Positions 1 to 59,744 of a DNA stretch of 64,000 nt are shown piece after piece; the stretch's first letter is position 1, and every line of letters begins with the position of its first letter. The stretch comes from Oryzias latipes (taxonomy: Eukaryota; Chordata; Actinopteri; Beloniformes; Adrianichthyidae). The DNA is taken from assembly GCF_002234675.1 (NCBI RefSeq), contig NC_019878.2, positions 4,280,688-4,344,687 of the forward strand. Direction: 5' to 3'. The notes under the pieces were generated by a model, which did not search any database, had not been told where the DNA came from, and was given only the letters and a program-made list of their open reading frames with translations. The position numbers were made by a program, and so were the translations under genes.

Positions 1-3000
1 ATATGCTCCAGGAGGGCGATAACGCTCATCCCAGGGCTTCCCTAGCACTGCTTGGCTGAGTTGGTCCACAGCCTCTCTCATTGAAGTTTCGAATAACCGG
101 AAGGAGGAATTTCCTTTGACAGCATCCTCCATCCGGTCATCATTCCAGCGCATCAAGCCCTCAAGGAGATATGCCTGGAAATGCGCGTCACTGGCACTGG
201 TTCCTGAGTGAAACAAACAGGGTTTGATAAGTCTCTGTTTACAAGATGTGAACCACATGAAAGCAAATGTTAGAAATGTTTACAGAAAGGTTAGGAACCC
301 AGATGTTCAGTGCACATTACCTGGTATAAAACGGTTCAGGTGGAGGTGGAAGGACTCCAAGGAGGTCGACCCACGGGCACACCTGTAGCAAGACAGCTCC
401 ACGCCGCCTTTCTTTAGTGTGCCCGTCTTCATGTAGAGTGGGAAGTTCTCGGGGTCTTGGATGCACAGCAGGTGGTTTTGCTGTTCCTTCCAAATCTGTT
501 GGATGCGTTCGTGGTCCAACAGTGGAACTCCAAGGGTGTCCTTCCCATCTGCACTGTCGAACTGATGGATGAGTGCTCCTAATAATGCTGCAGTCTCCTC
601 CACTCCCCTGGTCCTCCTCCGACAGTGGAGTGCCAACTCCCTGCGACTAATCTGAGCACTGACCGTCCTTCTGGAAACATGGCCACTTTTCTTTGCTGCC
701 AGCTCAGCCTCCTTGGCGCAGCGAAGAGCAGCCACATCTTCTGGATCCCACTCAAAAATGCACGCAGACAGACGTGCCATGAAGATCCCGTAGAGCGGAT
801 GAGCCTCTGTCGTGACACCTGCAGCGAATCGCCGCATGAAATGCCAGATGTCCAGGCGCACCTCAAGCTCATCCCACTCTGAAAACAGGGTCTTCACCAG
901 AGACCGGCCGTGTCTGCTGCAGCAGTCTCTGTCCACGTACATCACTTTTGGGGGTGCCTCTCCTGCCTCCCTGTAGCGCCTCATCAGGCCAGCCGCCATG
1001 GCGTCCAGTCCATGTCCTTCAGCGGCTGTCAGAACAGAGACCAGAACCTGGCCATGTTCATTGCCGACATTTGTGCACCAGGCAGCTGTTCCTGAAGCAG
1101 CCCCCGCAAGCTTCTTTGTGACCTATTGACAAAAAAGTAAAAACTGTTTATTATTTATGTAAGCATATTAATATCTGTTTAAAAAAGTTTTGAAAAAGTA
1201 CCTTTTTTGTGGAGTCCATCTTCAAAACACATCCAAACACAGATGTGATTTTGGCCTTCACTTCGTTGATCCGCCCCAGAACATCCCTTGCATAAACAGC
1301 TAACAGCCACTTAGGCTTAGGCAAGGCCGGCATGGGGGGGGGCTCAGCAAACACTGGTCGCTGAAGAGAGGCCCTTGTGAACGGTTCACACGCTGTGAGG
1401 TACTGTAGGACGCGCTGTGTCCATGCCTCACTGTGCTGTTCCAGTAACTTTTTATAAAGTTGTGTCACGCTGTTGCCCAGTGTCCTCTCCCTCATCATTC
1501 TCAGCACCCGCTTGTCACATGAGTACCTAAGGAAACAACAGCATAGGATAGGCATGCAAACCTTAGGTTAGGCAAAAATGAAAACACAAAGTCAGCTCAT
1601 TATGAACATGCGTCAATATGTCCCACCTGTATGTCAGCAGAGCTGGGAAATGGCTGCGATGACCCATGTCCATCTGCCCCAAAATGTCCTCTGACCAGGA
1701 TGGGTATTTTCTCTTGCAGCGTTTACATTCCAGATACTCCGTGGCGAGGTCATACCACCCATCAATGTCCAGGACTTTACGAACAGTCCTGTAAATTCCA
1801 GCCGCCGTAAGTCTGTGCTGACCACATTGTGGACGACCGCAGACAAAAAGAAATGACCACATTTTTTGTGGCATCCACAGGAACAGGGGCCGGCAGAAGA
1901 AGAGGTCTGGTGAGGCGGGAGGCTGAGTGTGAACCAGAGCGGGCTGGGGAGGATGCCACCAAAGCTTTAGCTGCGACACAAGTTCTGCCTTGCCGGTTCG
2001 TGGGTTGGCTTTGAAAAGCGTCTTTGCAATCCACTCGTGCTGGAAGCGTGGCAGTTGTTCTTTCCAGTGGACTGGAAGCTCCAGCGCTGACTTTGCTGCT
2101 GCCACAGATGGAGAGGGACCAGGACAGGCCTCTGAGGGAACAGGAACAAACAGAAGAATGACTCTTCCAGCTGCTATAGCATAAATGACACAAATGACAG
2201 TGGAGAACAGAAAGAGGATCAAATGGTAAAGATTAAAGAAATGAGGCTCAAAATTAGGCTTTTTTGCAAGCAAAAAAATGCTTTTTTATAATGCTTCTAA
2301 AAGTGTCTTTGATTAAAAAAAACAGTCTCCTAAGGTTACTGTCTGGTTAATATAACACACCTGCACTTAGCTGTGCTTCACATTGTGCTGCAGCAAGAAG
2401 CAGCTCCTCGTCATCAGCCTCCTTAGCAGGAGGAATGGAAGTGTCTAGAAGAAAGTATAAACATATTACTCTAAGAAACACATAAAGACAAACTTATGTA
2501 AAATAGAGCTTAATTACCAGCAGTAAAAAGCTGCCTTTGGGCCAAATTTTTGGCTGGAGGTTCTCCTCCTCCTCTTGGAGGAGGCAGTACAGGATCTTAA
2601 AAAAGAGCAATTGGACACTTTTACCATATTGTTAAATGCATGTGGAATTGCTCTGAGAACAAATAAATATGCATGTATACTCACGGTGCTTAGCTGGTGA
2701 TGTGAGTTTTTTGACGAGCTGGGAAGTAGGGATATTTTTGCCAAGTCCTAAGAGTGCCTTCACAGCAGCAGTCTGCTGGATGCCGGTTCGGATCTGGGTG
2801 GCAGAAGGGGTAGTGGCACGGGTGGGTGTAGTTGCACTGAAGGATGGAGTTGCAGTGGCAAGCGAAGGTGCAGCAGGAGGGGCAGTAGCACGAGATGATG
2901 CCCGTCTTTTTATGACGTATGCCTTGAAAATTGCCATGTTGGTGTTGGGCCTGGCATGTGCTGTCACCAGATACTTGATAAGGGCTTGGGCCTCCTTGCT

Positions 3001-3507
3001 CCCGTCCTCATAAACCTCCTTCATGGACCGGCCCTGGAAGTCGCCAAACTCAACCATCAAGTAGCCCTGGTCTCCAGTTGCTCGGGCTTCTGCTTGCATT
3101 TCCTGCTTTCTCTTGTACTTTTCACCTTCTTCTCCCATCTCTCTAATTTGAGAAGTGTACTGAAGGAAGAGTTGCTTGTTTTCTGACAACGGTGATGTAT
3201 GTGCTGCCTCGTCAGAGATGCTAAGCATTAAATACACAGCATAGCCCAGAGAGTTTTCCAGGAGCCATCTAAATCGTTGGCCTTGGTATTTACCAAACTG
3301 TAGTCTGCAGTGAGCCAATACCAAAAACTGGTCACTGGGGTCACCTCCGTTTGTGCTGACAAACGTCCGGGCCTCTTTAAGCACCTCCGCCTTTGGTTTC
3401 GCACGTCCAGTCTCCACATTTTCAAGGCGCTTTGCCTCGGCTGAAGGTGCCAGAAGGAGACGGGTTGATGTTGCAGATTGGCGACGGAAAACAGGATAAG
3501 CATACAT
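1..3507 (-). CDS. Transposase gene of tRNA-Ala-targeting element, copy 1 (5' part; 3' end beyond window)
   Basis: Spliced gene on the minus strand. Exons inferred from GT-AG borders and continuous frame: 3507-2685, 2595-2518, 2444-2361, 2170-1627, 1526-1202, 1122-321 and 203 to beyond position 1. The start is Met at 3507, just after a CAG acceptor, so the 5' UTR exon lies upstream. Exon 1 holds two similar modules (FGKYQGQRF and EFGDFQGRSMKEVY) resembling the small C-terminal domain of exonuclease X. Exon 4 carries CGRPQCG followed by a C-x2-C (ECKRCKRKYPSW), typical of DUF6729. Exon 5 ends with LKMDSTKK (first Asp of a DDE-like core). Exon 6 has MYVDRDCCSRHG (second Asp) and LDIWHFMRRF. I see no stop or frameshift in the part present, unlike copy 2. 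The family call (Dada-like) rests on the tRNA insertion site and remembered literature. The domain names are from memory. The copy could still be active if its 3' part is intact. Confidence 0.72.
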
Positions 3508-3596
3508 TTTCTGCAATGAAAATATAGCCATTAACAATTTGCATTTTAAGGGTGTGACAATAATTTAACAAGCTATATGTAAACAATAATCATGGG

Positions 3597-3712
3597 GTAA
3601 TAAACACTGCCATAACCCATGGCAGACAGACAGACAGACAGACAGTGAGTGAGTGAGTGAGTGAGTGAGTGAGTGAGTGAGTGAGTGAGTGAGTGAGTGA
3701 GTGTGTGTGGGG
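3597..3712. repeat. GACA / GTGA microsatellite
   Basis: Runs of CAGA/GACA pass into a long GTGA run (3645-3702), then GTGTGTGG. It lies between the first coding exon and the 5' UTR region of copy 1 and is absent from copy 2, so it is a later insertion or expansion. Confidence 0.9.
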
Positions 3713-4370
3713 GACCCCCTTCCCCAGGAGAAACCTCGACCCCACCCTCAATAGAAAACCAACCAAACAACGTTAATACAGTCCCCATTTTCTGGGTGAG
3801 ATGAACGCCGCTATGTTGGAGAGAAAGAGCCAGACACTGTCAGTCCATAAAAAACATGAACAAATTAGAATAATAAGGAGATGCCAATAAAGAGGTATCA
3901 GAGACAGAATTGTTATCTGACCAATAGAATGACTGAGTAACAGGTTTTTTCTCCATATGGTATTTTGGCTTCTTGGAGCCAGCGAGGGGGGGGGGGTCCT
4001 TCAGTCCAGTTCTCCTACAGTAAGGGCTAAAACTCTTGATGGCTGCTCACTGTACTTTTGAAACTACAGTTTCACCGAATATTTACAACTCATTCATCCA
4101 GAGTTAACTGACATCTCCACACATTTTATTACTTTATTATGAGCGTTGTTATAACTGTTGTTGTTAGAAAAACATCCCCCTTAAACCATATTGGAGGATT
4201 TACACTTTCAAAGCAATATAAATGATTATGGCGATGTTTAACGTATCTGATCAGATCTGTAGCATCATTTGATTTGTTTGTGCAGCATCGATCACAATTA
4301 AAAGTTTAACGTAATGGGGGGAAAAAGGGACTGCCGACTATCGATATTTCCCCTTTTCTAACAAATACGT

Positions 4371-4710
4371 ATCGAAGGTGAACAATCAATGTCTGATCGC
4401 TAGCAAACCGCTTTACCTGTTATTACGAAGACGTGAAAAGATGGCGGCCGCTGGCCGATCAAACGTAAACACAAGCACAGAAACGGGATGGAACAAAAGG
4501 TCGCGGATTAAATAAAAAAACTACAGACTATCATAATCATACCGAAGGTGGACAATCAATAAATAAATAAAGAATGAAACCAGTTTACCTGTGTTGTTAC
4601 GAACTCGAAGACGTGAAAATGGCGGTTGATCTGTCTGAGCGGTCGATGAGCGATCAAGCATGAACAAGAGCACAAAAACGTGGTCGAACAAAAGGTCGCA
4701 GATTAAATCC
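4371..4710 (-). promoter_or_regulatory. Duplicated 5' UTR exon and probable promoter of the transposase gene
   Basis: Two diverged tandem copies of ~170 bp (about 4371-4515 and 4545-4705) share ACGAAGACGTGAAAA, ATGGCGG, GATCAA, CACAA and AACAAAAGGTCGC. On the minus strand each ends in a good splice donor (CACAG/GTAAACTG at ~4590, AACAG/GTAAAGCGG at ~4420). The coding exon begins right after an acceptor (CATTGCAG at ~3511), so these are best read as alternative non-coding first exons. The matching region of copy 3 (20286-20416) has only one such unit. No TATA box was assigned. Confidence 0.5.
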
Positions 4711-4990
4711 AAGAAAAATGCCAGCTATAAACGAACAACCCACAGGAGGGAACAGTAAAAGTGACGAATCACTACTTGGAGCACGGCTATTTAAACATCC
4801 GCTCACAGCCGCTCACAGCAAGCTAACGCGCACGGATGATTGGTCAAGTATGAGCTAGAGAGGAACGTCATTGGCTGTAGTGTGAACTTACTTTGGATTT
4901 ACCTTACGTGATTGGCTGTAGTGAGGCAGGGATGTACTAACTTTGAACTAACTTAGATCAACTTTGGCTCAAAATCTGCGCTCCAGCAGG

Positions 4991-5030
4991 CGCAAGTGAG
5001 AGGTAGGGGGATCGACGCCCTCATTCTCCA
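4991..5030 (+). tRNA. tRNA-Ala 3' half (interrupted by transposon copy 1)
   Basis: Begins CGCAAGTGAGAGG inside the anticodon loop and continues through an intact T arm (GATCGACGC) and acceptor strand ATTCTCCA. The 5' half is missing because element copy 1 occupies the left side. The loop remnant CGCA suggests the broken gene had anticodon CGC. Non-functional fragment. Confidence 0.8.
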
Positions 5031-5333
5031 TTATCTTCACTTGTTGACTAGTGTAACTAATGCACACCTTAAAATTAAACCATTCATCAAACACATTACA
5101 TGGTTTTTAAACAATCACCATTGCTAAGTGCTTACTAAGCACTATTCAGCTGCAAGAAATCTGCAGTCTTTCAGTTGTTAATCACTAAGATCTTCTTGAG
5201 GTATCCCATTTTTAAGTGGCTTTCAGATGTTGATGTCCAAAAATAGTATTCAGTGGGTTCCGCAAAAACACAATGGCAATTCGTTGATCCCTCTTGAAAT
5301 TAAAGCTTGGCACAGTAAAAACATCTAACGGAA

Positions 5334-5407
5334 GGGGAATTAGCTCAAATGGTAGAGCGCTCGCTTCGCATGTGAGAGGTAGGGGGGATCGACACCTTCA
5401 TTCTCCA
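5334..5407 (+). tRNA. tRNA-Ala (CGC)
   Basis: Cloverleaf: acceptor GGGGAAT/ATTCTCC with the G3:U70 pair that marks alanine tRNAs, D arm GCTC/GAGC, anticodon stem CTCGC/GTGAG with loop TTCGCAT, discriminator A. It is 74 nt, one more than its neighbours, because the T-stem run has six G. T-stem pairing is weakened (CACCTTC instead of CGCCCTC), so it may be a poor gene. Confidence 0.75.
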
Positions 5408-5711
5408 AATAACTTCAGTTGTTGACTAGTGTTACTAATGTACACCTTAAAATTAAACCATTCATAAAACACATTACTTGGTTTTTAAACAATCACCATT
5501 GCTAAGTGCTTACTAAGGACTATACAGCTGCAAGAAATCTGCAGTCTTTTACTTGTTTATCACTAAAATCTTCTTGAGGTATCCCATTTTTTAGTGGCTT
5601 TCAGATGTTGATGTCCAAAAATAGTATTCAGTGGGTTCCGCAAAAACACAATGGCAATTCGTTGATCCCTCTTGAAATTAAAGCTTGGCACAGTAAAAAC
5701 ATCTAACGGAA

Positions 5712-5784
5712 GGGGAATTAGCTCAAATGGTAGAGCGCTCGCTTAGCATGTGAGAGGTAGGGGGATCGACGCCCTCATTCTCCA
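5712..5784 (+). tRNA. tRNA-Ala (AGC)
   Basis: 73 nt, all four arms pair, loop TTAGCAT gives anticodon AGC. A box TAGCTCAAATGG and B box GATCGACGC match Pol III promoter elements. G3:U70 present. Anticodon stem has a G-U pair and the T stem GGGGG/CCCTC another, where standard vertebrate tRNA-Ala has G-C. Nearest T run downstream is ~80 nt away. Confidence 0.85.
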
Positions 5785-6462
5785 TTATCTTCAGTTGTTG
5801 ACTAGTGTAACTAATGCACACCTTAAAATTAAACCATTCATCAAACACATCACGTGGTTTTTAAACAATCACCATTGCTATCTGCTTACTAAGGACTATA
5901 CAGCTGCAAGAAATCTGCAGTCTTTTACTTGTTTATCACTAAAATCTTCTTGAGGTATCCCATTTTTTAGTGGCTTTCAGATGTTGATGTCCAAGAATAG
6001 TATTCAGTGGGTTCCGCAAAAACACAATGGCAACTCGTTGATCCCTCTTGATGAGTCTAAGTTTTTGCTCACAAGGAGTGTATAACCTCAGGTAAAAAGA
6101 TGCATGCAAAATTACCATCAGGGAAAATGGACATCAGAAAGATTTGCTGGTCAGTCTCTTTTCATTCAGCACAACTACGTACATAGGTAATGAGTCACCT
6201 TTTAAATTTTTTGATTCATGTAGAAGCCCCAGGTTTTTATTTTACCTTTGTAAATAGGGCCTTGCCAACCATTCTAGCATTAGCTTGTAAACTGTGGAAA
6301 CCAAAATAGTATCTTATAGTTGTCCACCATTGGAACATGTTGAGATTTTGCAGAGAAAAACTATAAAGACAGTGTTTGGATATGCAACCACGTTAGGAAG
6401 ATTTGTCAATTCATTTCACAAAGTGAAATTAAAGCTTGGCACAGTAAAAACATCTAACGGAA

Positions 6463-6535
6463 GGGGAATTAGCTCAAATGGTAGAGCGCTCGCTTAGCAT
6501 GTGAGAGGTAGGGGGATCGACGCCCTCATTCTCCA
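6463..6535 (+). tRNA. tRNA-Ala (AGC)
   Basis: Identical in sequence to the copy at 5712, first member of the full-length 751 bp units. Confidence 0.85.
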
Positions 6536-7213
6536 TTATCTTCAGTTGTTGACTAGTGTAACTAATGTACACCTTAAAATTAAACCATTCATGAAACACA
6601 TTACATGGTTTTTAAACAATCACCATTGCTAAGTGCTTACTAAGCACTATTCAGCTGCAAGAAATCTGCAGTCTTTTACTTGTTAATCACTAAGATCTTC
6701 TTGAGGTATCCCATTTTTTAGTGGCTTTCAGATGTTGATGTCCAAGAATAGTATTCAGTGGGTTCCGCAACAACACAATGGCAACTCGTTGATCCCTCTT
6801 GATGGGTCTAAGTTTTTGCTCACAAGGAGTGTATAACCTCAGGTAAAAAGATGCATGCAAAATTACCATCAGGGAAAATGGACATCAGAAAGATTTGCTG
6901 GTCAGTCTCTTTTTATTCAGCACAACTACGTACATAGGTAATGAGTCACCTTTTAAATTTTTTGATTCATGTAGAAGCCCCAGGTTTTTATTTTACCTTT
7001 GTATATAGGGCCTTGCCAACCATTCTAGCATTAGCGTGTCAACTGTGGAAACCAAAATAGTATCTTATGGTTGTCCACCATTGGAACATGTTGAGATTTT
7101 GCAGAGAAAAACTATAAAGACAGTGTTTGGATATGCAACCACGTTAGGAAGATTTGTCAATTCATTACACAAAGTGAAATTAAAGCTTGGCACAGTAAAA
7201 ACATCTAACGGAA

Positions 7214-7286
7214 GGGGAATTAGCTCAAATGGTAGAGCGCTCGCTTAGCATGTGAGAGGTAGGGGGATCGACGCCCTCATTCTCCA
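7214..7286 (+). tRNA. tRNA-Ala (AGC)
   Basis: Identical to the copy at 6463 and exactly 751 bp downstream of it. Confidence 0.85.
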
Positions 7287-7964
7287 TTATCTTCAGTTGT
7301 TGACTAGTGTAACTAATGCACACCTTAAAATTAAACCATTCATCAAACACATTACATGGTTTTTAAACAATCACCATTGCTAAGTGCTTACTAAGGACTA
7401 TACAGCTGCAAGAAATCTGCAGTCTTTCAGTTGTTAATCACTAAGATCTTCTTGAGGTATCCCATTTTTTAGTGGCTTTCAGATGTTGATGTCCAAGAAT
7501 AGTATTCAGTGGGTTCCGCAACAACACAATGGCAACTCGTTGATCCCTCTTGATGGGTCTAAGTTTTTGCTCACAAGGAGTGTATAACCTCAGGTAAAAA
7601 GATGCATGCAAAATTACCATCAGGGAAAATGGACATCAGAAAGATTTGCTGGTCAGTCTCTTTTTACTCAGCACAACTACGGACATAGGTAATGAGTCAC
7701 CTTTTAGATTTTTTGATTCATGTAGAAGCCCCAGGTTTTTATTTTACCTTTGTATATAGGGCCTTGCCAACCATTCTAGCATTAGCGTGTCAACTGTGGA
7801 AACCAAAATAGTATCTTATGGTTGTCCACCATTGGAACATGTTGAGATTTTGCAGAGAAAAACTATAAAGACAGTGTTTGGATATGCAACCACGTTAGGA
7901 AGATTTGTCAATTCATTACACAAAGTGAAATTAAAGCTTGGCACAGTAAAAACATCTAACGGAA

Positions 7965-8037
7965 GGGGAATTAGCTCAAATGGTAGAGCGCTCGCTTCGC
8001 ATGTGAGAGGTAGGGGGATCGACGCCCTCATTCTCCA
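7965..8037 (+). tRNA. tRNA-Ala (CGC)
   Basis: Same cloverleaf but loop TTCGCAT, so anticodon CGC. Unlike the 5334 copy, the T stem is of the normal array type, making this the best CGC candidate. Confidence 0.82.
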
Positions 8038-8589
8038 TTATCTTCAGTTGTTGACTAGTGTAACTAATGTACACCTTAAAATTAAACCATTCATCAAACA
8101 CATTACATGGTTTTTAAACAATCACCATTGCTAAGTGCTTACTAAGGACTATACAGCTGCAAGAAATCTGCAGTCTTTTACTTGTTAATCACTAAAATCT
8201 TCTTGAGGTATCCCATTTTTTAGTGGCTTTCAGATGTTGATGTCCAAAAATAGTATTCAGTGGGTTCCGCAACAACACAATGGCAACTCGTTGATCCCTC
8301 TTGATGAGTCTAGGTTTGTGCTCACAGAGTGTATAACCTCAGGTAAAAAGATGCATGCAAAATTACCATCAGGGAAAATGGACATCAGAAAGATTTGCTG
8401 GTCAGTTTCTTTTTATTCAGCACAACTACGTACATAGGTAATGAGTCACCTTTTAAATTTTTTGATTCATGTAGAAGCCCCAGGTTTTTATTTTACCTTT
8501 GTAAATAGGGCCTTGCCAACCATTCTAGCATTAGCTTGTCAACTGTGGAAACCAAAATAGTATCTTATGGTTGTCCACCATTGGAACAT

Positions 8590-9589
8590 NNNNNNNNNNN
8601 NNNNNNNNNNNNNNNNNNNNNNNNNNNNNNNNNNNNNNNNNNNNNNNNNNNNNNNNNNNNNNNNNNNNNNNNNNNNNNNNNNNNNNNNNNNNNNNNNNNN
8701 NNNNNNNNNNNNNNNNNNNNNNNNNNNNNNNNNNNNNNNNNNNNNNNNNNNNNNNNNNNNNNNNNNNNNNNNNNNNNNNNNNNNNNNNNNNNNNNNNNNN
8801 NNNNNNNNNNNNNNNNNNNNNNNNNNNNNNNNNNNNNNNNNNNNNNNNNNNNNNNNNNNNNNNNNNNNNNNNNNNNNNNNNNNNNNNNNNNNNNNNNNNN
8901 NNNNNNNNNNNNNNNNNNNNNNNNNNNNNNNNNNNNNNNNNNNNNNNNNNNNNNNNNNNNNNNNNNNNNNNNNNNNNNNNNNNNNNNNNNNNNNNNNNNN
9001 NNNNNNNNNNNNNNNNNNNNNNNNNNNNNNNNNNNNNNNNNNNNNNNNNNNNNNNNNNNNNNNNNNNNNNNNNNNNNNNNNNNNNNNNNNNNNNNNNNNN
9101 NNNNNNNNNNNNNNNNNNNNNNNNNNNNNNNNNNNNNNNNNNNNNNNNNNNNNNNNNNNNNNNNNNNNNNNNNNNNNNNNNNNNNNNNNNNNNNNNNNNN
9201 NNNNNNNNNNNNNNNNNNNNNNNNNNNNNNNNNNNNNNNNNNNNNNNNNNNNNNNNNNNNNNNNNNNNNNNNNNNNNNNNNNNNNNNNNNNNNNNNNNNN
9301 NNNNNNNNNNNNNNNNNNNNNNNNNNNNNNNNNNNNNNNNNNNNNNNNNNNNNNNNNNNNNNNNNNNNNNNNNNNNNNNNNNNNNNNNNNNNNNNNNNNN
9401 NNNNNNNNNNNNNNNNNNNNNNNNNNNNNNNNNNNNNNNNNNNNNNNNNNNNNNNNNNNNNNNNNNNNNNNNNNNNNNNNNNNNNNNNNNNNNNNNNNNN
9501 NNNNNNNNNNNNNNNNNNNNNNNNNNNNNNNNNNNNNNNNNNNNNNNNNNNNNNNNNNNNNNNNNNNNNNNNNNNNNNNNNNNNNNNNN
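8590..9589. other. Assembly gap (1,000 N)
   Basis: Exactly 1,000 unknown bases inside the tRNA array. A round number suggests an arbitrary gap size. Repeat phase at the two edges implies 138 bp plus a whole number of 751 bp units is really missing. Confidence 0.97.
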
Positions 9590-9650
9590 CAAATAGTAGA
9601 GCGCTCGCTTTGCATGTGAGAGGTAGGGGGATCGACGCCCTCATTCTCCA
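9590..9650 (+). tRNA. tRNA-Ala (TGC), 5' end in gap
   Basis: Starts at the gap edge with CAAATAGTAGAGC. The loop TTTGCAT gives anticodon TGC. The D loop has ATAG where the others have ATGG, which changes the conserved GG of the D loop and may impair folding. The first ~12 nt are hidden by the gap. Confidence 0.75.
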
Positions 9651-10328
9651 TTATCTTCAGTGCTTGACTAGTGTTACTAATGTACACCTTAAAATTAAAC
9701 CATTCATCAAACACATTATGTGGTTTTTAAACAATCACCATTGCTAAGTGCTTACTAAGGACTATACAGCTGCAAGAAATCTGCAGTCTTTCAGCTGTTA
9801 ATCACTAAGATCTTCTTGAGGTATCCCATTTTTTAGTGGCTTTCAGATGTTGATGTCCAAGAATAGTATTCAGTGGGTTCCGCAACAACACAATGGCAAC
9901 TCGTTGATCCCTCTTGATGGGTCTAGGTTTGTGCTCACAAGGAGTGTACAACCTCAGGTAAAAAGATGCATGCAAAATTACCATCAGGGAAAATGGACAT
10001 CAGAAAGATTTGCTGGTCAGTTTCTTTTTATTCAGCACAACTACGGACATAGGTAATGACTCACCTTTTAGATTTTTTGATTCATGTAGAAGCCCCAGGT
10101 TTTTATTTTACCTTTGTAAATAGGGCCATGCCAACCATTCTAGCATTAGCTTGTAAACTGTGGAAACCAAAATAGTATCTTATGGTTGTCCACCATTGGA
10201 ACATGTTGAGATTTTGCAGAGAAAAACTATAAAGACAGTGTTTGGATATGCAACCAGGTTAGGAAGATTTGTCAATTCATTACACAAAGTGAAATTAAAG
10301 CTTGCCACAGTAAAAACATCTAACGGAA

Positions 10329-10401
10329 GGGGAATTAGCTCAAATGGTAGAGCGCTCGCTTAGCATGTGAGAGGTAGGGGGATCGACACCCTCATTCTCC
10401 A
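10329..10401 (+). tRNA. tRNA-Ala (AGC)
   Basis: Loop TTAGCAT. It carries CGACACCCTC in the T arm and is followed by CAAATAACTTC instead of CATTATCTTC, like the 5334 unit. Confidence 0.82.
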
Positions 10402-11081
10402 AATAACTTCAGTTGTTGACTAGTGTAACTAATGCACACCTAAAGATTAAACCTTTCATGAAATACATTATATGGTTTTTAAACAATCACCATTGCTAAG
10501 TGCTTCCTTAGGACTATACAGCTTCAAGTGCTCTGCAGTCTTTCATTTGTTAATCAGTAAGATCTTCTTGAGGTATCCCATTTTTTAGTGGCTTTCAGAT
10601 GTTGATGTCCAAGAATAGTATTCAGTGGGTTCCGCAAAAACACAATGGCAACTCGTTGATCCCTCTTGATGAGTCTAAGTTTTTGCTCACAAAGGAGTAT
10701 ATAACCTCAGGTAAAAAGATGCATGCAAAATTACCATCAGGGAAAATGGACATCAGAAAGATTTGCTGGTCAGTCTCTTTTCATTCAGCACAACTACGTA
10801 CATAGGTAATGAGTCACCTTTTAAATTCTTTGATTCATGTAGAAGCCCCAGGTTTTTATTTTACCTTTGTAAATAGGGCCTTGCCAACCATTCTAGCATT
10901 AGCGTGTCAACTGTGGAAACCAAAATAGTATCTTATGGTTGTCCACCATTGGAACATGTTGAGATTTTGCAGAGAAAAACTATAAAGACAGTGTTTGGAT
11001 ATGCAACCATGTTAGGAAGATTTGTCAATTCATTACACAAAGTGAAATTAAAGCTTGGCACAGTAAAAACATCTAATGGAA

Positions 11082-11154
11082 GGGGAATTAGCTCAAATGG
11101 TAGAGCGCTCGCTTAGCATGTGAGAGGTAGGGGGATCGACGCCCTCATTCTCCA
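11082..11154 (+). tRNA. tRNA-Ala (AGC)
   Basis: Same sequence as the 5712 copy. Last complete tRNA of the array. Confidence 0.85.
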
Positions 11155-11832
11155 TTATCTTCAGTTGTTGACTAGTGTAACTAATGCACACTTTAAAATT
11201 AAACCATTCATCAAACACATTACATGGTTTTTAAACAATCACCATTGCTAAGTGCTTACTAAAGACTATACAGCTGCAAGAAATCTGCAGTCTTTCAGTT
11301 GTTAATCACTAAGATCTTCTTGAGGTATCCCATTTTTTAGTGGCTTTCAGATGTTGATGTCCAAGAATAGTATTCAGTGGGTTCCGCAACAACACAATGG
11401 CAACTCGTTGATCCCTCTTGATGGGTCTAGGTTTGTGCTCACAAGGAGTGTACAACCTCAGGTAAAAAGATGCATGCAAAATTACCATCAGGGAAAATGG
11501 ACATCAGAAAGATTTGCTGGTCAGTCTCTTTTTATTCAGCACAACTACGGACATAGGTAATGAGTCACCTTTTAGATTTTTTGATTCATGTAAAAGCCCC
11601 AGGTTTTTATTTTACCTTTGTAAATAGGGCCTTGCCAACCATTCCAGCATTAGCTTGTAAACTGTGGAAACCAAAATAGTATCCTACGGTTGTCTACCAT
11701 TGGAACATGTTGAGATTTTGCAGGGAAAAACTATAAAGACAGTGTTTGGATATGCAACCACGTTAGGAAGATTTGTCAATTCATTACACAAAGTGAAATT
11801 AAACCTTGGCACAGTAAAAAGATCTAACGGAA

Positions 11833-11870
11833 GGGGAATTAGCTCAAATGGTAGAGCGCTCGCTTTGCAT
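11833..11870 (+). tRNA. tRNA-Ala 5' half (interrupted by transposon copy 2)
   Basis: GGGGAATTAGCTC... to CTCGCTTTGCAT, intact D arm and anticodon loop (TGC), then an abrupt switch to AAGCAGGGGG. The A box is intact but the B box and 3' acceptor strand are lost. Confidence 0.88.
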
Positions 11871-12785
11871 AAGCAGGGGGCTGATCTTCCCGCTCGCGCA
11901 CGAGGCAAAAGCACGCGCAAACCGGAAATCTACGGCGCGGTTTTCACTTTGAAAGACTCTGGATATACGTCTACATATTGTGGATTGTTTTCAGTAATAT
12001 GTGAAACGAGACTCTCTCCCGAAGCTGGACTCGAATCGAAGGTCTGTCCGTCCGCTCAGGTATCCAAGGACGCTGTTCGTCGCCGTCTTTCGGATGACGT
12101 ATTTGAAACGTAAAACGCGAAAGCTCAGACGCTCAGTCACGTTATCATGAATCTTTCTTCATTGATGAATATGCAAGCTCATGTCTTCTGCAGTTTTCAC
12201 AAGTTATTTATCGATAATAACTATCATGCCATGGATATTAATGCAAAAGAAGCATGTTAACTTGCTTATTTTGACAATAAATGAATGTTTCTTTGTGTTG
12301 ACACTTGTGTGCAGGACCTTTTTGCGGCTGTATAATTATCTATAACTGTATAATACATATGATAGTTACATATTATTTATGTATTTTATTACTTTGTTTT
12401 TACAAGTTGTCTGTGACGTGTCACAAAACCTATTTACAGCTTTCGAATTGTATTATTTTCCCAAAAAAAGAAGCCTTTGACATGTTTACATTATTAAACA
12501 TAACAGATTTAAAAAAAAATATTTTCTCCTTTTTTTCTTGAGTGGGGTGTGGAGGGGACAAATTCTGGGAAACTGAAAGCTTATTTTGTAGCTTTAATTG
12601 ACCAGACAAATGATACTTCAAATGTAAAATGTTTTATTAAAATGAAGACACAGAAAACTAACATGAATCACATTGACAAAAAGTAAATATTAGAAAATAA
12701 CAAAAAAAATTTTTTTAAATAACTAAAGAATGTACATACAACAATAATTTACTATCTACATTACGATGATATTACCGAAGAGTAC
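11871..12785. other. 3' terminal region of transposon copy 2, non-coding
   Basis: From the tRNA junction to the transposase stop. The first ~250 bp are GC-rich with CGCGCA-type words. The rest is AT-rich with long A and T runs. I see no convincing gene. Confidence 0.6.
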
Positions 12786-14404
12786 CTATGAAAGAGGAGG
12801 AGGAGGAGGTGATCTGCCTTTGTGCTGTTGGCGCTGTTCTGCCAACCAGTCATCCAATGATCGTCCATTTGAAGCCCGCGAGCAAAATGTGGCATTTTTG
12901 TAGCGACTATGCCCGTATTCTTTTGTTTTGGGCTGTCCACATTTGCTGCACGTATTATAGTTCACTCCTCGTATGTATTTTCTTTTGTGGATGCCGCTTT
13001 CTTCCTCCAAGGCCCATCTTTGCCTGTTCTTCTGTGTGGAGCGTGACACAGGGACAGTAGGGACAGCTGGGGCAGTCGCAGGTGGAACGAAGCCTGCACT
13101 GCTTGTTGTTGCTCCAGGAAATGGATAAGCGGTGGGCACAGCCATAACTGGGAAAGGAATTATGGTCCCCAACAATAATCCAGGTGCTGACACAGGTGGA
13201 ATAAAACCAGTTACACTGGTGGCAGGTGTGATGGGGCACATCATACTGTCAGTAGCAGCAGAGGAAGAGGAAGAAGCAGTAGCAGTAGCAGTAGCAGCAG
13301 CAGGCCTGCGACCTGGTCTCAGAATAGGAGCCTGTCCTGCTCTATTTAGAGGAAGAATGAATTTGAATTTGGGCCCAGATGTGGATGGTGCCTCATCCAT
13401 TTTTTGCCTTGGAGCAGGAAGGTCGCTTGCAGCTACAGCAACTGGCTCGGGGGGTGTCAATCCCTGGGCGAGGACACTCCTTTCTTGGTTTTTCTCCCGC
13501 CGCTGAAACCTGAAATGAATCAACGGTATTATGATAATGTTTTGAAAAAGTCATTGAAATAGAATAAAATAAGGCGCTGTGCTCACCATTGAATGAGTGT
13601 CCTCTGATTGAACTCAAACAGCTGGATCATTGTTTCCTCCATCAGCCTGCGACTGCTCAGCACTAAATCCCGGATATGGTGGTAATCCGTGAGGATTTTG
13701 GACCACCTTGGGGTGCTAACTCCAGCCTTCTTGGTGGGCGTCTTGTGCAAACGGCTTAGCTTAATGCAAATAGCCTCAACCAAGCGGCTGGTGCTTGGCC
13801 ACTGAGCTGGACCCCCAGGATGTCCAATGAGACACCTTTTCACACTTTCCACTCCTGGTGTCACCCCGGAGCGTTTTGGTGCCTTAAAGCGGCCGTGTGA
13901 AAGCTGAGGCTGGTGCCGAGGCTGGTAGTTGACCCGCTTTTTGTCCACCTCCAGGAGAGCTGTCCATAGTCGAATGGCCTCTGTAACTTGTGGGTCAGTG
14001 AGGTAAGGAGCCTCACGGAGTCCCACTAAGTAAGAGGCCAGATCCTGGACTTTGTCCCACCCAGCTATGCCGTCGGGTCCTACAACAGCAGACTAATAAA
14101 TGCAAATGAATGTTAGAAATGCTGAACCAGATGAGACTAAAATGAAAGGATGGTCCTTTAAAACGTCTCACCTCTGCCTCGTCTGAAGGGCTGCTTTCAC
14201 TCTCAGTTGGCTGTGACACCACCACAGAGGAAAGACGATGAGCAGAAGTTTCAGGTCCACCTGGTGATACTGAGAGTAGCGGCTGAGGTGAAGATGAGGG
14301 GCTGGCAACGACATCAAGAGGGGGGTCATCCAACACTGGTACAGTGATGTCCTCCATGTTGTCTTCCCCAAACCCCTCGTCTTGGAAGTCCTGGTCACTT
14401 TGCA

Positions 14405-15926
14405 AAAAAAGAAAAGTTCGTAGAACTTAAAATTGTAAGGCAACAAACTTCGGTAAAATTTTGAGTTAAGGACCTCAACTCAATATTTTAAGTTTTGTGT
14501 TGGAGTTTTCAAACTCATTTATCTAAATTCTTCTAACTCAGTTGTAAGTTGTATGAACTTAAAAGTTCAAGTTGGATTAACTTTGAATCGTTATTTTGAC
14601 CAACTCCAATGAAAGTTACAGTGACCTAAAATGTCACGTAATCCTAACTCTGAATCTTAACTTTTCACAACTCAGGCTTAGATGTACAAACTTAATTTTT
14701 AAGGCCGTAACAACTGTAAATTCCGATTATTGGTGACTTCACCAAGGTTGAAATAACTTAACTTTGAGATTTAAGAGCACCTCTTTTCTTGACTTTGATT
14801 TCAGCTTCATAATCACACATACTTTTTAACCTGCCACATTTCCATATTTCCACATGCAACCCAGATCTTTTCAATATCATTGGGGCACAGGTGAGCAGTT
14901 ACAGTTCACCTGCATGTGTGCAGCAGGACAAATATTTAAATTTATCCCTACTCAATCACTGCAACAACATGAGCGTCACTTCTCTTCACAGCTCTCTAAC
15001 TCAAGGTGTGGGAATCAACACTTCCCATGAGTCTTAGTTGCCATGGGCGGGGCTAAGGCCCGGTTCACCAAAGCATTGTTTACAAAATGGCTGAAGCCCT
15101 GGGGGTATTCCAGAAAGCAGGTTATAGTTATAACGGTAAGTTTGAGGCTAAGGAAGTTGATAACCTCAGCTTTCAGTTCCAGTGTTTCAGGATATGCCAA
15201 GTTGCCATAACAACTCATGCTCTGAACATAACCTGGTCTGGAGCAGGTTTAGTTGAAGGTTAGTTTGTTTACAGAGAGGTGAAGCAGCATGGCGTGTCCA
15301 TTTGAAGATGATTTAGTGGATGAAGAAGCTCAGATGATACTTTTTCCACCATGAGAGGGTGATGAGACCACATATGGATGTTGGAAAAATAAACTTTTTT
15401 ACTTTGATCTAACTTAATTATTTGCTTCAGTTAAGATAAATCATTTTTTTGTTTAGTCATCTTAAAAACAACACGTAGTTATCAGACAGTTATTTTACTT
15501 TCATTCAAATTAATTAAATTAAGTAGGTGTAACTTTGATGCTGCTGTTAGATCGGCACCGCAAGGAATTGTGGGATACAACGTACTTTATGTACTTGCTA
15601 ATACTTATGTCATTAAATAAGAGTAAAAACTTCTGCAGACGCTCCTTGACAAACCACTCAATCAGTGGACAATGCCAACTCCAAAAGTTGGAATTCTCGC
15701 ATTTCACAATTAAAAAAGATAAGTTCACATAACTTTATCACACTGTAATGAACTGCAACTTAGATATATAAGTACAGACAACTCAATAAATAATGTTGAA
15801 CTGTACGACTACCTTAACTTGCTGAACTGACTTAAATTGTTGAATTGATTACTAGAACTTAGATTATATAGTTATTACAACATAAAAGATTTTGTTAAGT
15901 CAAAAAATTTAAGTTGGATTTATTAC
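14405..15926. mobile_element. 1.5 kb AACTTA-rich insertion splitting the copy 2 transposase
   Basis: Lies between the transposase exon parts ending GIDEL and starting SDQDFQDEGFGED. Both edges are rich in AACTTAA/TTAAGTT words. The interior (15099-15250) holds a piece of the GGGGGTATTCCAGAAAGCAG MITE family also seen at 19698 and 23461. A similar AACTTA-rich stretch follows the GATA tract at 27447-27590. No coding capacity and no clear terminal repeat or target duplication, so class is unknown. Confidence 0.6.
15099..15260 (+). repeat. Harbinger-type MITE fragment
   Basis: Starts GGGGGTATTCCAGAAAGCAG and continues with a region like that of 23461-23650. This terminus style is frequent in fish PIF/Harbinger MITEs. 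Only one end is recognised. Confidence 0.5.
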
Positions 15927-18900
15927 AGTTCATCAATTCCCTCCAGCAGCCTGTCCTCCTCTTCAGGGGTCTGAAGCATGGCAGTAAATGTCTTTCCAGT
16001 CTGGCTGTACAGGTATTCTATTCCCAGCAATTCACCTACAAAAATAAAAAGAAAAGCTATAAACGCTGTCGTGACATTAGGATAGATAAATCGCAAAATA
16101 ACAAATGTATATATTTCTTACCTGTATATGCTCCAGGAGGGCGATAACGCTCATCCCAGGGCTTCCCTAGCACTGCTTGGCTGAGTTGGTCCACAGCCTC
16201 TCTCATTGAAGTTTCGAATAACCGGAAGGAGGAATTTCCTTTGACAGCATCCTCCATCCGGTCATCATTCCAGCGCATCAAGCCCTCAAGGAGATATGCC
16301 TGGAAATGCGCGTCACTGGCACTGGTTCCTGAGTGAAACAAACAGGGTTTGATAAGTCTCTGTTTACAAGATGTGAACCACATGAAAGCAAATGTTAGAA
16401 ATGTTTACAGAAAGGTTAGGAACCCAGATGTTCAGTGCACATTACCTGGTATAAAACGGTTCAGGTGGAGGTGGAAGGACTCCAAGGAGGTCGACCCACG
16501 GGCACACCTGTAGCAAGACAGCTCCACAGCTTTCTTTAGTGTTCCCGTCTTCATGTAGAGTGGGAAGTTCTCGGGGTCTTGGATGCACAGCAGGTGGTTT
16601 TGCTGTTCCTTCCAAATCTGTTGGATGTGTTCGTGGTCCAACAGTGGAACTCCAAGGGTGTCCTTCCCATTTGCACTGTCGAACTGATGGATGAGTGCTC
16701 CTAATAATGCTGCAGTCTCCTCCACTCCCCTGGTCCTCCTCCGACAGTGGAATGCCAACTCCCTGCGACTAATCTGAGCACTGACCGTCCTTCTGGAAAC
16801 ATGGCCACTTTTCTTTGCTGCCAGCTCAGCCTCCTTGGCGCAGCAAAGAGCAGCCACATCTTCTGGATCCCACTCAAAAATGCACGCAGACAGACGTGCC
16901 ATGAAGATCCCGTAGAGCGGATGAGCCTCTGTCGTGACACCTGCAGCGAATCGCCGCATGAAATGCCAGATGTCCAGGCGCACCTCAAGCTCATCCCACT
17001 CTGAAAACAGGGTCTTCACCAGAGACTGGCCGTGTCTGCTGCAGCAGTCTCTGTCGACGTACATCACTTTTGGGGGTGCCTCTCCTGCCTCTTTGTAGCG
17101 CCTCATCAGGCCAGCCGCCATGGCGTCCAGTCCATGTCCTTCAGCGGCTCTCAGGACAGAGACCAGAACCTGGCCATGTTCATTACCGACATTTGTGCAC
17201 CAGGCAGCTGTTCCTGAAGCAGCCCCCGCAAGCTTCTTTGTGACCTATTGACAAAAAAGTAAAAACTGTTTATTATTTATGTAAGCATATTAATATCTGT
17301 TTAAAAAAGTTTTTAAAAAGTACCTTTTTTGTGGAGTCCATCTTCAAAACACATCCAAACGCAGATGTGATTTTGGCCTTCACTTCGTTGATCCGCCCCA
17401 GAACATCCCTAGCATAAACAGCTAACAGCCACTTTGGCTTAGGCAAGGCAGGCATTGGGGGGGGCTCAGCAAACACTGGTCGCTGAAGAGAGGCCCTTGT
17501 GAACGGTTCACACACTGTGAGGTACTGTAGGACGCGCTGTGTCCATGCCTCACTGTGCTGTTCCAGTAACTTTTTATAAAGTTGTGTCACGCTGTTGCCC
17601 AGTGTCCTCTCCCTCATCATTCTCAGCACCCGCTTGTCACATGAGTACCTAAGGAAACAACAGCATAGGATAGGCATGCAAACCTTAGGTTAGGCAAAAA
17701 TGAAAACACAAAGTCAGCTCATTATGAACATGCGTCAATATGTCCCACCTGTATGTCAGCAGAGCTGGGAAATGGCTGCGATGACCCATGTCCATCTGCC
17801 CCAAAATGTCCTCTGACCAGGATGGGTATTTTCTCTTGCAGCGTTTACATTCCAGATACTCAGTGGCGAGGTCATACCACCCATCAATGTCCAGGACTTT
17901 ACGAACAGTCCTGTAAATTCCAGCCGCCGTAAGTCTGTGCTGACCACATTGTGGACGACCGCAGACAAAAAGAAATGACCACATTTTTTGTGGCATCCAC
18001 AGGAACAGGGGCCGGCAAAAGAAGAGGTCTGATGAGGCGGGAGGCTGAGTGTGAACCAGAGCGGGCTGAGGAGGATGCCACCAAAGCTTTAGCTGCGACA
18101 CAAGTTCTGCCTTGCCGGTTCGTGGGTTGGCTTTGAAAAGCGTCTTTGCAATCCACTCGTGCTGGAAGCGTGGCAGTTGTTCTTTCCAGTGGACTGGAAG
18201 CTCCAGCGCTGACTTTGCTGCTGCCACAGATGGAGAGGGACCAGGACAGGCCTCTGAGGGAACAGGAACAAACAGAAGAATGACTCTTCCAGCTGCTATA
18301 GCATAAATGACACAAATGACAGTGGAGAACAGAAAGAGGATCAAATGGTAAAGATTAAAGAAATGAGGCTCAAAATTAGGCTTTTTTGCAAGCAAAAAAA
18401 TGCTTTTTTATAATGCTTCTAAATGTGTTTTTGATTAAAAAAAACTGTTTCCTAACGTTCCTGTCTGGTTAATATAACACACCTGCACTTAGCTGTGCTT
18501 CACATTGTGCTGCAGCAAGAAGCAGCTCCTCGTCATCAGCCTCCTTAGCAGGAGGAATGGAAGTGTCTAGAAGAAAGTATAAACATATTACTCTAAGAAA
18601 CACATAAAGACAAACTTGTGTTAAATAGAACTTAATTACCAGCAGTAAAAAGCTGCCTCTGGGCCAAATTTTTGGCTGGAGGTTCTCCTCCTCCGCTTGG
18701 AGGAGGCAGTACAGGATCTTAAAAAAGAGCAATTGGACACTTTTACCATATTGCTAAATGCATGTGGAATTGCTCTGAGAACAAATAAATGTGCATGTAT
18801 ACTCACGGTGCTTAGCTGGTGATGTGAGTTTTTTGACGAGCTGGGAAGTAGGGATATTTTTGCCAAGTCCTAAGAGTGCCTTCACAGCAGCAGTCTGCTG

Positions 18901-19697
18901 GATGCCGGTTCGGATCTGGGTGGCAGAGGGGGTAGTGGCACGGGTGGGTGTAGTTGCACTGGAGGATGGAGTTGCAGTGGCAAGAGAATGTGCAGCCGGA
19001 GGGGCAGTAGCACGAGATGATGCCCGTCTTTTTATGACGTATGCCTTGAAAATTGCCATGTTGGTGTTGGGCCTGGCATGTGCTGTCACCAGATACTTGA
19101 TAAGGGCTTGCGCCTCCTTGCTCCCGTCCTCATAAACCTCCTTCATGGACCGGCCCTGGAAGTCACCAAACTCAACCATCAAGCAGCCCTGGTCTCCAGT
19201 TGCTCGGGCTTCTGCTTGCATTTCCTGCTTTCTCTTGTACTTTTCATCTTCTTCTCTCATCTCTCTAATTTGAGAAGTGTACTGAAGGAAGAGTTGCTTG
19301 TTTTCTGACAACGGTGATGTATGTGCTGCCTCGTCGGAGATGCTAAGCATTAAATACACAGCATAGCCCAGAGAGTTTTCCAGGAGCCATCTAAATCGTT
19401 GGCCTTGGTATTTACCAAACTGTAGTCTGCAATGATACCAGAAACTGGTCACTGGGGTCACCTCGTTTGTGCTGACAAATGTCCGGGCCTCTTTGAGCAA
19501 ATGAGTAAATTCAGTTACCATTTGGGTAACATGGGTGAGATAAACGCCGCCATGTTGGAGAGAAAAAGCCAGACACTGTCAGTCCACAAAGAATATTTTT
19601 ATAAAATTAGGATAATAAGGAGATGTTAATAAAGAGGTACCAGCCAGAAGATGATTTTTCTCCATATGGGATTTTGGCTTCTTGGAGCCAGCAGACT

Positions 19698-20022: not shown

Positions 20023-20062
20023 TGGAGAATGAGGGGATCGACCCCCCTACCTCTCACTTGCG
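20023..20062 (-). tRNA. tRNA-Ala 3' half (interrupted by transposon copy 3)
   Basis: Minus strand reads GCAAGTGAGAGG... to CATTCTCCA, the same 3' half as at 4991, with a small shift in the T arm (GGTCGATCCCCTC). The 5' half is replaced by element sequence. Fragment only. Confidence 0.8.
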
Positions 20063-20609
20063 CCTACTGGCGTACAGATTGTGAGCCAAAGTATGCCCAC
20101 ATTAAGTCCAAGTAAGCCCACATTAGCAAATCACCTTTGACTCCTGTGGCTTACTTGTAGTGCCTAATCACGTTTGACTCCCGTGGCTTACTTTTGACCA
20201 ATCGTCTGTTCATGTTAGCCTGCTGTGGCTTACGTGTAAATAGCTGTGTCTTGAATCTTCACTTTTACAGATCACGCCTGTAGGTTGTTTTTTATAGCTG
20301 GCATTTTTCTGGGATTTAAACCACGAACTTAAACACGATCCCGTTTCTGTGCTCGTGTTTACGTTTGATCGCTCATGGACTGCCATTGTTCTCGTCTTTG
20401 GAAGAGGTAATGGTTTCCTTCTTTATCGATAAGACACTGTTTGTCCATATTCGGTCTGTATTTGTTAGATAAAGGGAATTAGTGATAGCTAATGAATATA
20501 GTTCATTTTTTTCTTAACTTTTCAAAACATTAAATCCATGCAAACCCTGTTTTTCATCACCAAACGGCAACATTAACTCCTGGCGCCGTCGGCAGAGGCA
20601 AAGCTTCTC

Positions 20610-21115
20610 GAAAATGTGGAGACCAGACAGGCCAAACCGAAGGAGGAGGTCTTTACAGGGGTCCGTATGTTTGTCAGCACAAACGGTGGTGACCCCAGTT
20701 TTTGGTATTGGCTCAGTGCAAACTATAGTTTGGTAAATACCAAGGCCAACGATTTAAATGGCTCCTGGAAAACTCTCTGGGCTATGCTGTGTATTTAACC
20801 CTTGTGCTATCCTAGGCACTTTACCATTGAGAGTGCGCTGAACCTTTTTTCTTCAATGATTTGTGATCTTCACTGGTGTCCATGGATTACATGAAATCTT
20901 TCCACCTTTATCCACGTTTGTCATGGTAGGGAGAACACGTCAATGTAAGGGTGGGGTCATCTAAGATAGCACAAGGGTTAATGCTTAGCATCTCCGACGA
21001 GGCAGCACATACATCACCGTTGTCCGAAAACAAGCAACTCTTCCTTCAGTACACTTCTCAAATTAGAGCGATGGGAGAAGAAGGTGAAAAGTACAAGAGA
21101 AAGCAGTTTTCCCAT
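20610..21115 (+). pseudogene. Transposase N-terminal fragment, copy 3 (inverted)
   Basis: Plus-strand fragment matching the N-terminal exon of copies 1 and 2. It runs from the equivalent of ENVETGRAKPK through the first exonuclease-X-like module to the equivalent of REMGEEGEKYKRKQ. It is broken by frameshifts (the frame around 20616-20798 switches between the two phases of copy 1) and by a 179 bp MITE at 20799-20977. Homology stops at ~21115, inside the exon. It lies head to head with copy 2, so the two make an imperfect palindrome. Confidence 0.75.
20799..20977 (+). mobile_element. piggyBac-type MITE with TTAA target duplication
   Basis: Perfect 13 bp terminal inverted repeats CCCTTGTGCTATC...GATAGCACAAGGG, flanked on both sides by TTAA (20795-20798 and 20978-20981). 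Removing it restores the transposase fragment it interrupts. TTAA duplication is the mark of the piggyBac superfamily. No coding capacity. Confidence 0.88.
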
Positions 21116-22914: not shown

Positions 22915-23123
22915 CCCTTGTGCTATCCTAGGCACTTTGACATTGGGAGTTGGGTCATCTAGACCCACCAGTCAGTGCGCTGAACCTTTTTTTTTCAATG
23001 ATTTGTGATCCTCACTGGTGTCCATGGATTACATGAAATCTTTCCACCTTTATCCACCTTTCTCATGGTAGGGAGAACACGTCCCTACATGTAAGGGTGG
23101 GGTAATTGAAAATAGCACAAGGG
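22915..23123 (+). mobile_element. piggyBac-type MITE, longer version
   Basis: Same family as 20799: starts CCCTTGTGCTATCCTAGGC and ends AATAGCACAAGGG. Flanked by GTAA on both sides (22911-22914, 23124-23127), a variant of the TTAA target. It contains ~30 bp (GTTGGGTCATCTAGACCC) that the 20799 copy lacks. Confidence 0.82.
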
Positions 23124-24344: not shown

Positions 24345-24475
24345 GGCTAAATGGTAAATGGCGTATACTTATATAGCGCTTTCTACCTTCTTATGAAGGC
24401 CCAAAGCGCTTTACAGTCACAGTCCAATTCACCCATGCACACACATTCACACACTGATGGCGGCTCCGCTGCCGA
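24345..24475. repeat. Fish interspersed repeat (TATATAGCGC family)
   Basis: Holds ATACTTATATAGCGCTTTCT, CCCAAAGCGCTTTACAGTCA, CACACATTCACACACTGATG and GGCGGC, a common fish repeat. It lies between the inverted LINE end and the LINE ORF, so the Met at 24457 belongs to this repeat and not to the LINE. Confidence 0.6.
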
Positions 24476-24479
24476 ACAC

Positions 24480-27180: not shown

Positions 27181-27445
<265 letters not shown>

Positions 27446-58930: not shown

Positions 58931-59744
58931 GCTGGTCTCTTTGGTCACTATGCAGTCTGTTGGGTGGATGGTTTAAGTCCGGTGATCCAAATGAGACGAG
59001 ATGAGGTTAATCAAATCCAGCACAATAGTTAGTGGTGATGTTTGGCCATAAAGAGGTGCCACAGTTCAAGAGGTCTAACGAAACCAGAGTGGAGGTCTGT
59101 ATCAGCCCCCCTAAAACTGGAAACTGACCCTGTAAGAGCCTGGATGGGTTGATAGCCTCCACCCTGCTGGGTGAGGGGGGGCGGAGATGGTGAGAAGAAG
59201 GGAGGAGAGGGAGGGATGGGGTCAAGTAACTGGACTGCTAAAGAAGAAATGCCCAAGTGAGGATCTCCTTCCATGCTTATGTTGTTCAGATGCGGCCCTC
59301 CTCAAGGTCCAGTAGACCCCCACCTTTGAAGCATTTTCAAATGGACATGTGGATCTTTAATCGGTGAATGTGAAACAACGAGTGACGCAGATCCTAACAT
59401 ATCTTTGATGCTAAAAATACTTTCCTGGTAAAGTGACTCTCTCCTCTTCTCTGGGGAACGAGTCTATTACAGGGTTTGGAAACCCCCTCCCATCTACCCC
59501 TCCATCATCTACTCATCAGGTGTCACTTTTTCACTTCTGTCATAGGGATTTGTCCATTTGGGTCCCCACCTGCCCCCACAGCTGTTGCTACAGCTGTCTG
59601 TGTAGATTCAGCTAGCTCAAACAAAAAAATCTGTTGAAGCCCTGGTAATGCGACTGTATGGAAACTGCATTTCCCACAATGCCAGAGCCACCTAGTCTGC
59701 TCATCTTCATGATTAATACAGTTGAGATGTACAGCCCTTGACTG

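Follow-up and report, generated by a model that had tools for sequence, protein, structure and literature searches.

A tRNA-Ala array broken by a DNA transposon

The window, by which we mean the whole 64,000-nucleotide stretch of Oryzias latipes contig NC_019878.2 (C20 below) that was analysed, holds a tandem array of tRNA-Ala genes interrupted by copies of a DNA transposon. We identify this element, with a probability of about 0.93, as Dada-tA of medaka, which inserts site-specifically in tRNA-Ala genes, at a fixed hexamer of their anticodon loop. The identification rests on the motifs of the transposase, its DUF6729 domain, the insertion site, the orientation opposite to the tRNA, and the GCGCAA flank. 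The features, in window coordinates, are these:

1..4989, minus strand: 5' part of Dada-tA copy A, whose left end lies outside the window at C20:4277943
4990..4995, plus strand: right flank of copy A, GCGCAA replacing TAGCAT
4996..5030, plus strand: 3' half of the tRNA-Ala gene that copy A interrupts
4996..11870, plus strand: tRNA-Ala tandem array of 751-bp units and 376-378-bp variants, with an N gap at 8590-9589
11833..11870, plus strand: interrupted 5' half of a tRNA-Ala gene (anticodon TGC), identical to the intact array copies except at one anticodon base
11865..11870, plus strand: native target hexamer TTGCAT, left side of copy B
11871..19692, minus strand: Dada-tA copy B, with its 3' end at 11871 and its 5' end lost
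18253-17749, 17648-17324, 17244-16446 and 16328-16122, minus strand: exons 1-4 of the copy B transposase
16035-15927, 14397-14172, 14092-13587 and 13509-12786, minus strand: exons 5-8 of the copy B transposase
20058..20063, minus strand: GCGCAA adjoining fragment C (TTGCGC on the plus strand)
20064..21106, plus strand: fragment C, an older inverted Dada-tA piece with the element's 5' end and a small repeat inside

At the junction, the tRNA-Ala sequence runs through TTTGCAT up to 11870 and the 3' end of the transposon begins at 11871; the same anticodon region reads TTAGCAT or TTCGCAT in intact copies of the array. The first-pass annotation, made from the letters alone, had described a perfect tRNA gene that turns into the 3' end of a DDE-transposase element, and this is confirmed by the match of 11833-11870 to the array copies and by the element running on from 11871. 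It had also placed the insertion within the anticodon loop of tRNA-Ala; the tRNA-Ala site stands, while the position is refined to the 3' edge of the 7-nt loop.

The copies differ in completeness. Copy A is whole, at 7,734 bp with both ends present and no N, and copy D spans 9,488 bp, also with both ends and with an insert of about 1.7 kb. Copy B has lost its 5' end and with it a right flank, and of copy E a stub of some 130 bp remains. From 11871, copy B is 98.2% identical to the copy at the window start (copy A) over 3,383 bp, and 98% identity to copy A continues up to 19499, followed by a weak match at 19532-19692. A and B are separated by 105 substitutions over alignments of 3,583 and 2,548 columns, a third weak piece of 194 columns being left out, and A and D by 67 substitutions over 6,666 and 1,111 columns (79 gap columns). 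Fragment C is more diverged than the other copies, and an inverted tRNA-Ala 3' half with its spacer lies at 20057-19813, next to the GCGCAA of this fragment.

Several other repeats were seen in and around these copies. Copy B has an intron insert of about 1.5 kb (14398-15929) that is absent from copy A, and the insert of copy D (element positions 1088-2836) differs from it. The small repeat inside fragment C (20832-20941) has a second copy at 22974-23083 that is 96% identical to it; both have CCCTTGTGCTAT-like ends with TTAA at the borders, as judged by eye, and look like a piggyBac-type MITE. Farther to the right, reverse transcriptase open reading frames of a non-LTR element lie at 24397-26948 and 27181-27445 (RVT_1, E 1.4e-25), directly before a perfect (ATAG)66 repeat. 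We take this element to be R4-like, and it is possibly one that targets microsatellites.

The transposase

The eight exons of copy B (12786..18253) have AG/GT borders and join into a partial protein of 1,132 residues with no stop. The Pfam domain DUF6729 was recognised on the first two exons (E 3.7e-58 and 9.4e-30). The catalytic residues and DxxH motif that define Dada transposases are present as D272, D340, E531 and DIWH at 367, and so are the two zinc fingers, an N-terminal C-x4-C-x32-C-x2-C at 97 and a C-terminal C-x2-C-x9-H-x8-C at 1079. The first-pass annotation had named Dada as the described case of a DNA transposon choosing small RNA genes; that lead proved correct, all of these protein features agreeing with it, as do the tRNA-Ala site, the opposite orientation and the GCGCAA flank. 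Compared with Dada-U6_DR, as given in PMC3706591, the distance between the two D residues (68) and the spacing of the C-terminal finger are identical, whereas the N-terminal finger has x34 there and x32 in copy B, and the second D stands 176 residues before the E there and 191 in copy B.

In the protein search, 7,987 candidates were scored and 333 relatives were found at E <= 0.001. Among the best 120 of these 333, the named ones are mostly fish; the closest relative is a protein of 1,343 aa at 98% identity, and the next named ones are fish proteins. Within the same 120, of which many are partial models, the first D is present in 106, the second in 93, DxxH in 112 and E in 109, with the CCHC finger in 72 and the CCCC finger in 87. 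One relative (P0021) was modelled from 42 aligned rows, with a mean pLDDT of 68 and a pTM of 0.52, to look for the RNase H-like fold expected of a Dada transposase. The first D sits on a strand and the second where a strand ends; the helix with E378 falls in a region of pLDDT below 50. A Foldseek search with this model ranked the ISCth4 transposase first and second and the PFV (foamy virus) integrase core third, at E 3.4e-3 to 5.2e-3, which is weak, and with no match at E <= 0.001. The ISCth4 transposase presumably belongs to the IS256 family. The ranking agrees with the weak similarity of Dada to retroviral integrases and IS256 reported in 2013 (PMC3706591). A PDB search by sequence gave a single match, at E 0.84. 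Relatives of Dada were also sought in viral contigs, where 128 stretches fitted the pattern and none was confirmed.

Insertion sites in the genome

The medaka genome itself (734,051,031 bases in 25 contigs) was searched with both ends of the element, the counts of matches being lower bounds. The left-junction query gave at least 35 matches. Four extend to the left terminus, three of them in C20 tRNA-Ala genes (copies A, B and D) and the fourth, which is decayed, on C13 outside any tRNA. The right-end query gave at least 28 matches, of which the four that reach the terminus (A, D, E and C) are all in the C20 tRNA-Ala array; the remaining matches to the end queries are internal pieces or tRNA units. 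Counting also a decayed right end on C14, there are nine termini, and seven of them (three left, four right) fall at the same tRNA-Ala base within one array at C20 4.25-4.30 Mb, whereas the two decayed ones lie outside tRNA genes. The C14 end falls short of the terminus and stops, by eye, about 55 bp before an intact tRNA-Ala. The C14 copy (positions 2095-6972 of C14:3337800-3347799) is a mosaic relative to copy A, with 95.6% identity over 2,566 middle columns and 68-90% in its other pieces. The site and orientation characteristic of Dada-tA, namely TAGCAT of tRNA-Ala with the transposase opposite to the tRNA, are thus found at seven of nine termini; A, B, D and E sit in one array in one orientation, and C is inverted.

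The comparison of left ends across the genome, proposed in the first-pass annotation, therefore speaks for the tRNA-Ala site: three of the four left termini lie in tRNA-Ala genes, and the outcome named there as fatal, left ends found mainly outside such genes, did not show among these matches. Misassembly, the other danger it had named, might be suspected from the 1,000-base N gap within the array, which at 8590-9589 is the sole N run in C20:4249640-4344687 and lies 2.3 kb from the junction. Yet two further near-identical elements (C20:4251310 and C20:4277943) and four right ends share the junction base, which makes chance or misassembly unlikely, and three left and four right junctions at one base are in line with published insertions; we consider an assembly error extremely improbable.

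Flanking hexamers and the history of the array

Six of the seven array ends are flanked by GCGCAA: the left ends of A and D, the right ends of A, C and E, and the right end of D, where GCGCAA is followed by an extra T. The sole exception is the left end of copy B, with the native hexamer TTGCAT. Copy A has GCGCAA instead of TAGCAT on both sides, and copy D has a T before GCGCAA on the left and a T after it on the right, so that the 6-7 bp target site duplication typical of Dada is seen in A and likewise, but for one extra T at the right, in D. In C20:4249640-4344687, 18 units are intact and have exact flanks; they carry TAGCAT (11), TCGCAT (6) or TTGCAT (1), and never GCGCAA.

The exception at copy B admits another account, in which its left flank was originally GCGCAA and gene conversion, with a nearby TGC unit as donor, made it TTGCAT. 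A TGC unit does stand at 9590 beside the N gap, gene conversion is active in the array, and B departs from A and D at two of the five element bases next to the junction. Such a tract, however, must have stopped exactly at the element border, where homology ends on one side, and one-sided replacement is published for Dada-tA (PMC8869645), so that we hold conversion to be unlikely. A broader alternative is that unequal exchange spread copies of a single old insertion, the shared position then recording one event rather than repeated targeting. Copies A, B, D and E do share one array and one orientation, and the array units swap sequence, as is shown by homoplasy among spacer columns. The flanks tell against it: over 330 bp, the left flank of A has two differences from at least five intact units, that of D has two from another unit, and the two differ from each other at seven positions, from which we conclude that A and D are likely separate insertions, judging by these sequences. 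Two things limit this reading of the flanks: on its right side, D is followed by array sequence for some 74 bp only, and flanks may have been blurred by gene conversion. For copy B, the nearest unit is at 11 differences. Fragment C, inverted and with 72-80% similarity in its end, and the same insertion site published for other fish (PMC8869645), also point away from a single event. Multiplication of one insertion is accordingly quite improbable, and repeated insertion at one tRNA-Ala base is preferred.

The tRNA genes of the array vary in their own right. The 5' side of the site is present in nine copies in the window; two of these carry TGC, namely the one at the junction and another that borders the N gap. 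Array units (window 4996-11870; C20:4249640-4292552) carry AGC, CGC or TGC anticodons, and the wobble base that varies occupies position 2 in the hexamer that Dada targets. Switching of anticodons by Dada was considered and rejected. On the spacer tree, the anticodon needs three changes among 15 main-type units (10 A, 5 C), and other two-state columns (minor count 4-7) need one to four; since its homoplasy is within the range of these columns and not exceptional, ordinary gene conversion suffices.

Phylogeny of the transposase

A quick tree with 55 rows places copy B and a near twin in an 18-row clade that adjoins the cypriniform rows; its other members are transposases of unnamed target from gobies, Acanthopagrus, Paralichthys, Alosa, Neoarius and cyprinids or loaches. 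The grouping with cypriniform rows has an SH-aLRT of 98 in the quick tree and 94/99, not starred, in a more careful tree of 20 rows, in which a single clade of the seven percomorph rows is rejected (p-AU 2.6e-11), this group having been named after the first tree was seen. The transposase tree thus conflicts with the host tree, the medaka copy grouping with cypriniform and not with other percomorph transposases. The two-exon cavin4b gene in the window (PTRF_SDPR, 51237-58972, minus strand) follows the usual host order; its 96% identity to a cluster of five members headed by Oryzias melastigma places the host in Oryzias. The conflict might stem from horizontal transfer or from old sister lineages, and we offer it as a lead only. 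We do not claim transfer, since ancient sister lineages with loss fit equally well; the 2022 paper reports no obvious case of transfer (PMC8869645).

A proposed mechanism of targeting and flank replacement

The replacement of TAGCAT by GCGCAA was described in 2013 and its mechanism was called unknown (PMC3706591). By a speculation in the 2022 paper, TTGCGC would be an ancestral flank moving with the element; the same paper argues that the Dada protein binds mainly downstream of the site (PMC8869645). In the model that we propose, the transposase would recognise its target through the likeness of the tRNA to the element's own 5' end and would make a staggered cut of 6 or 7 nt at the fixed hexamer. 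The excised element would keep a 6-nt overhang of donor flank, GCGCAA, which would usually be ligated into the 6-nt gap of the target instead of the gap being filled from the target, and each side would be resolved separately, towards donor or target. Each insertion disables a single tRNA gene out of a large array. We regard the overhang step, in which GCGCAA is joined into the target gap, as unlikely, and would equally bet against the fuller scheme, in which Dada-tA overwrites its target by its own overhang together with a 7-nt cut of TTAGCAT (a native T on each side) and mimicry of the A-box. The T-GCGCAA and GCGCAA-T borders of copy D fit a 7-nt cut of TTAGCAT; a chance insertion of T fits them too.

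The choice of target may rest on A-box mimicry by the element's 5' end. TTTGAGC stands at positions 17-23 inwards from the hexamer in both the element's 5' end and the tRNA. For the right end of copy A, such a match in register arose in 1 of 2,000 shuffles (p 0.0005), which becomes about 0.014 when corrected for 27 tests (the best of nine comparisons with three measures each); the other two measures for the same pair gave p 0.02 and 0.16, and fragment C has a 5-base run in register (p 0.024). The match lies downstream of the site, which is the side argued for protein binding (PMC8869645). The left end, taken from copy B, gave no convincing match to the tRNA. Two related ideas were tried with the same end and rejected, there being no significant local match either for inverted repeats at the two ends (p 0.19) or for mimicry of the tRNA's 3' half by the left end (p 0.30).

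Comparison with known systems

Few DDE transposons are site-specific, and among them Dada is known for targeting small RNA genes. As a discovery the locus is ordinary; its value is that of a clean and well-formed example of a published lineage, offering in one array a complete copy, a second two-ended copy, a left end that retains the native target, and numerous empty units. With it, the exchange of TAGCAT for GCGCAA could be put to the test, and the mechanism proposed for this exchange is the part worth testing. The locus also bears on the use of Dada for targeted insertion raised in PMC8869645 and PMC3706591.

Among DNA transposons, Pokey, of the piggyBac type, also prefers a multicopy RNA gene, the 28S rRNA genes (cited in PMC8869645). 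It differs in its transposase superfamily and in its target. The integrase of Tn916-like elements is a tyrosine recombinase. These elements resemble the proposed mechanism in the inferred step only, six flanking donor bases travelling along through a mismatched junction (PMC4321634), and they differ in having a circular intermediate and coupling sequences that change, while GCGCAA does not. Closer at hand are Dada-U6 and Dada-U1, of the same superfamily, whose targets are snRNA genes; their sub-terminal repeats also occur in the target at equal distance, as printed in PMC3706591, whereas here this holds at one end, and they have an inverted copy at the other end, of which none was found in the medaka element with the left end of copy B.

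Closest of all is Dada-tA itself, published in 2013 with Dada-tA_OL of medaka (Kojima and Jurka; PMC3706591) and extended in 2022, with a record for Adrianichthyidae (Kojima; PMC8869645). Dada-tA_OL and Dada-tA_DR of zebrafish share the same site in the tRNA-Ala anticodon loop, the orientation opposite to the tRNA and the DDE/DxxH transposase; GCGCAA replaces TAGCAT in them, as printed in PMC3706591, and the replacement can be one-sided (PMC8869645). Nothing was found to separate the window element from Dada-tA, the comparison with Dada-tA_OL being by published description. The case is already known, as a published lineage in the host group where it was published, and is new only in detail: GCGCAA with an extra T at copy D, TTGCAT at copy B, and the A-box match.
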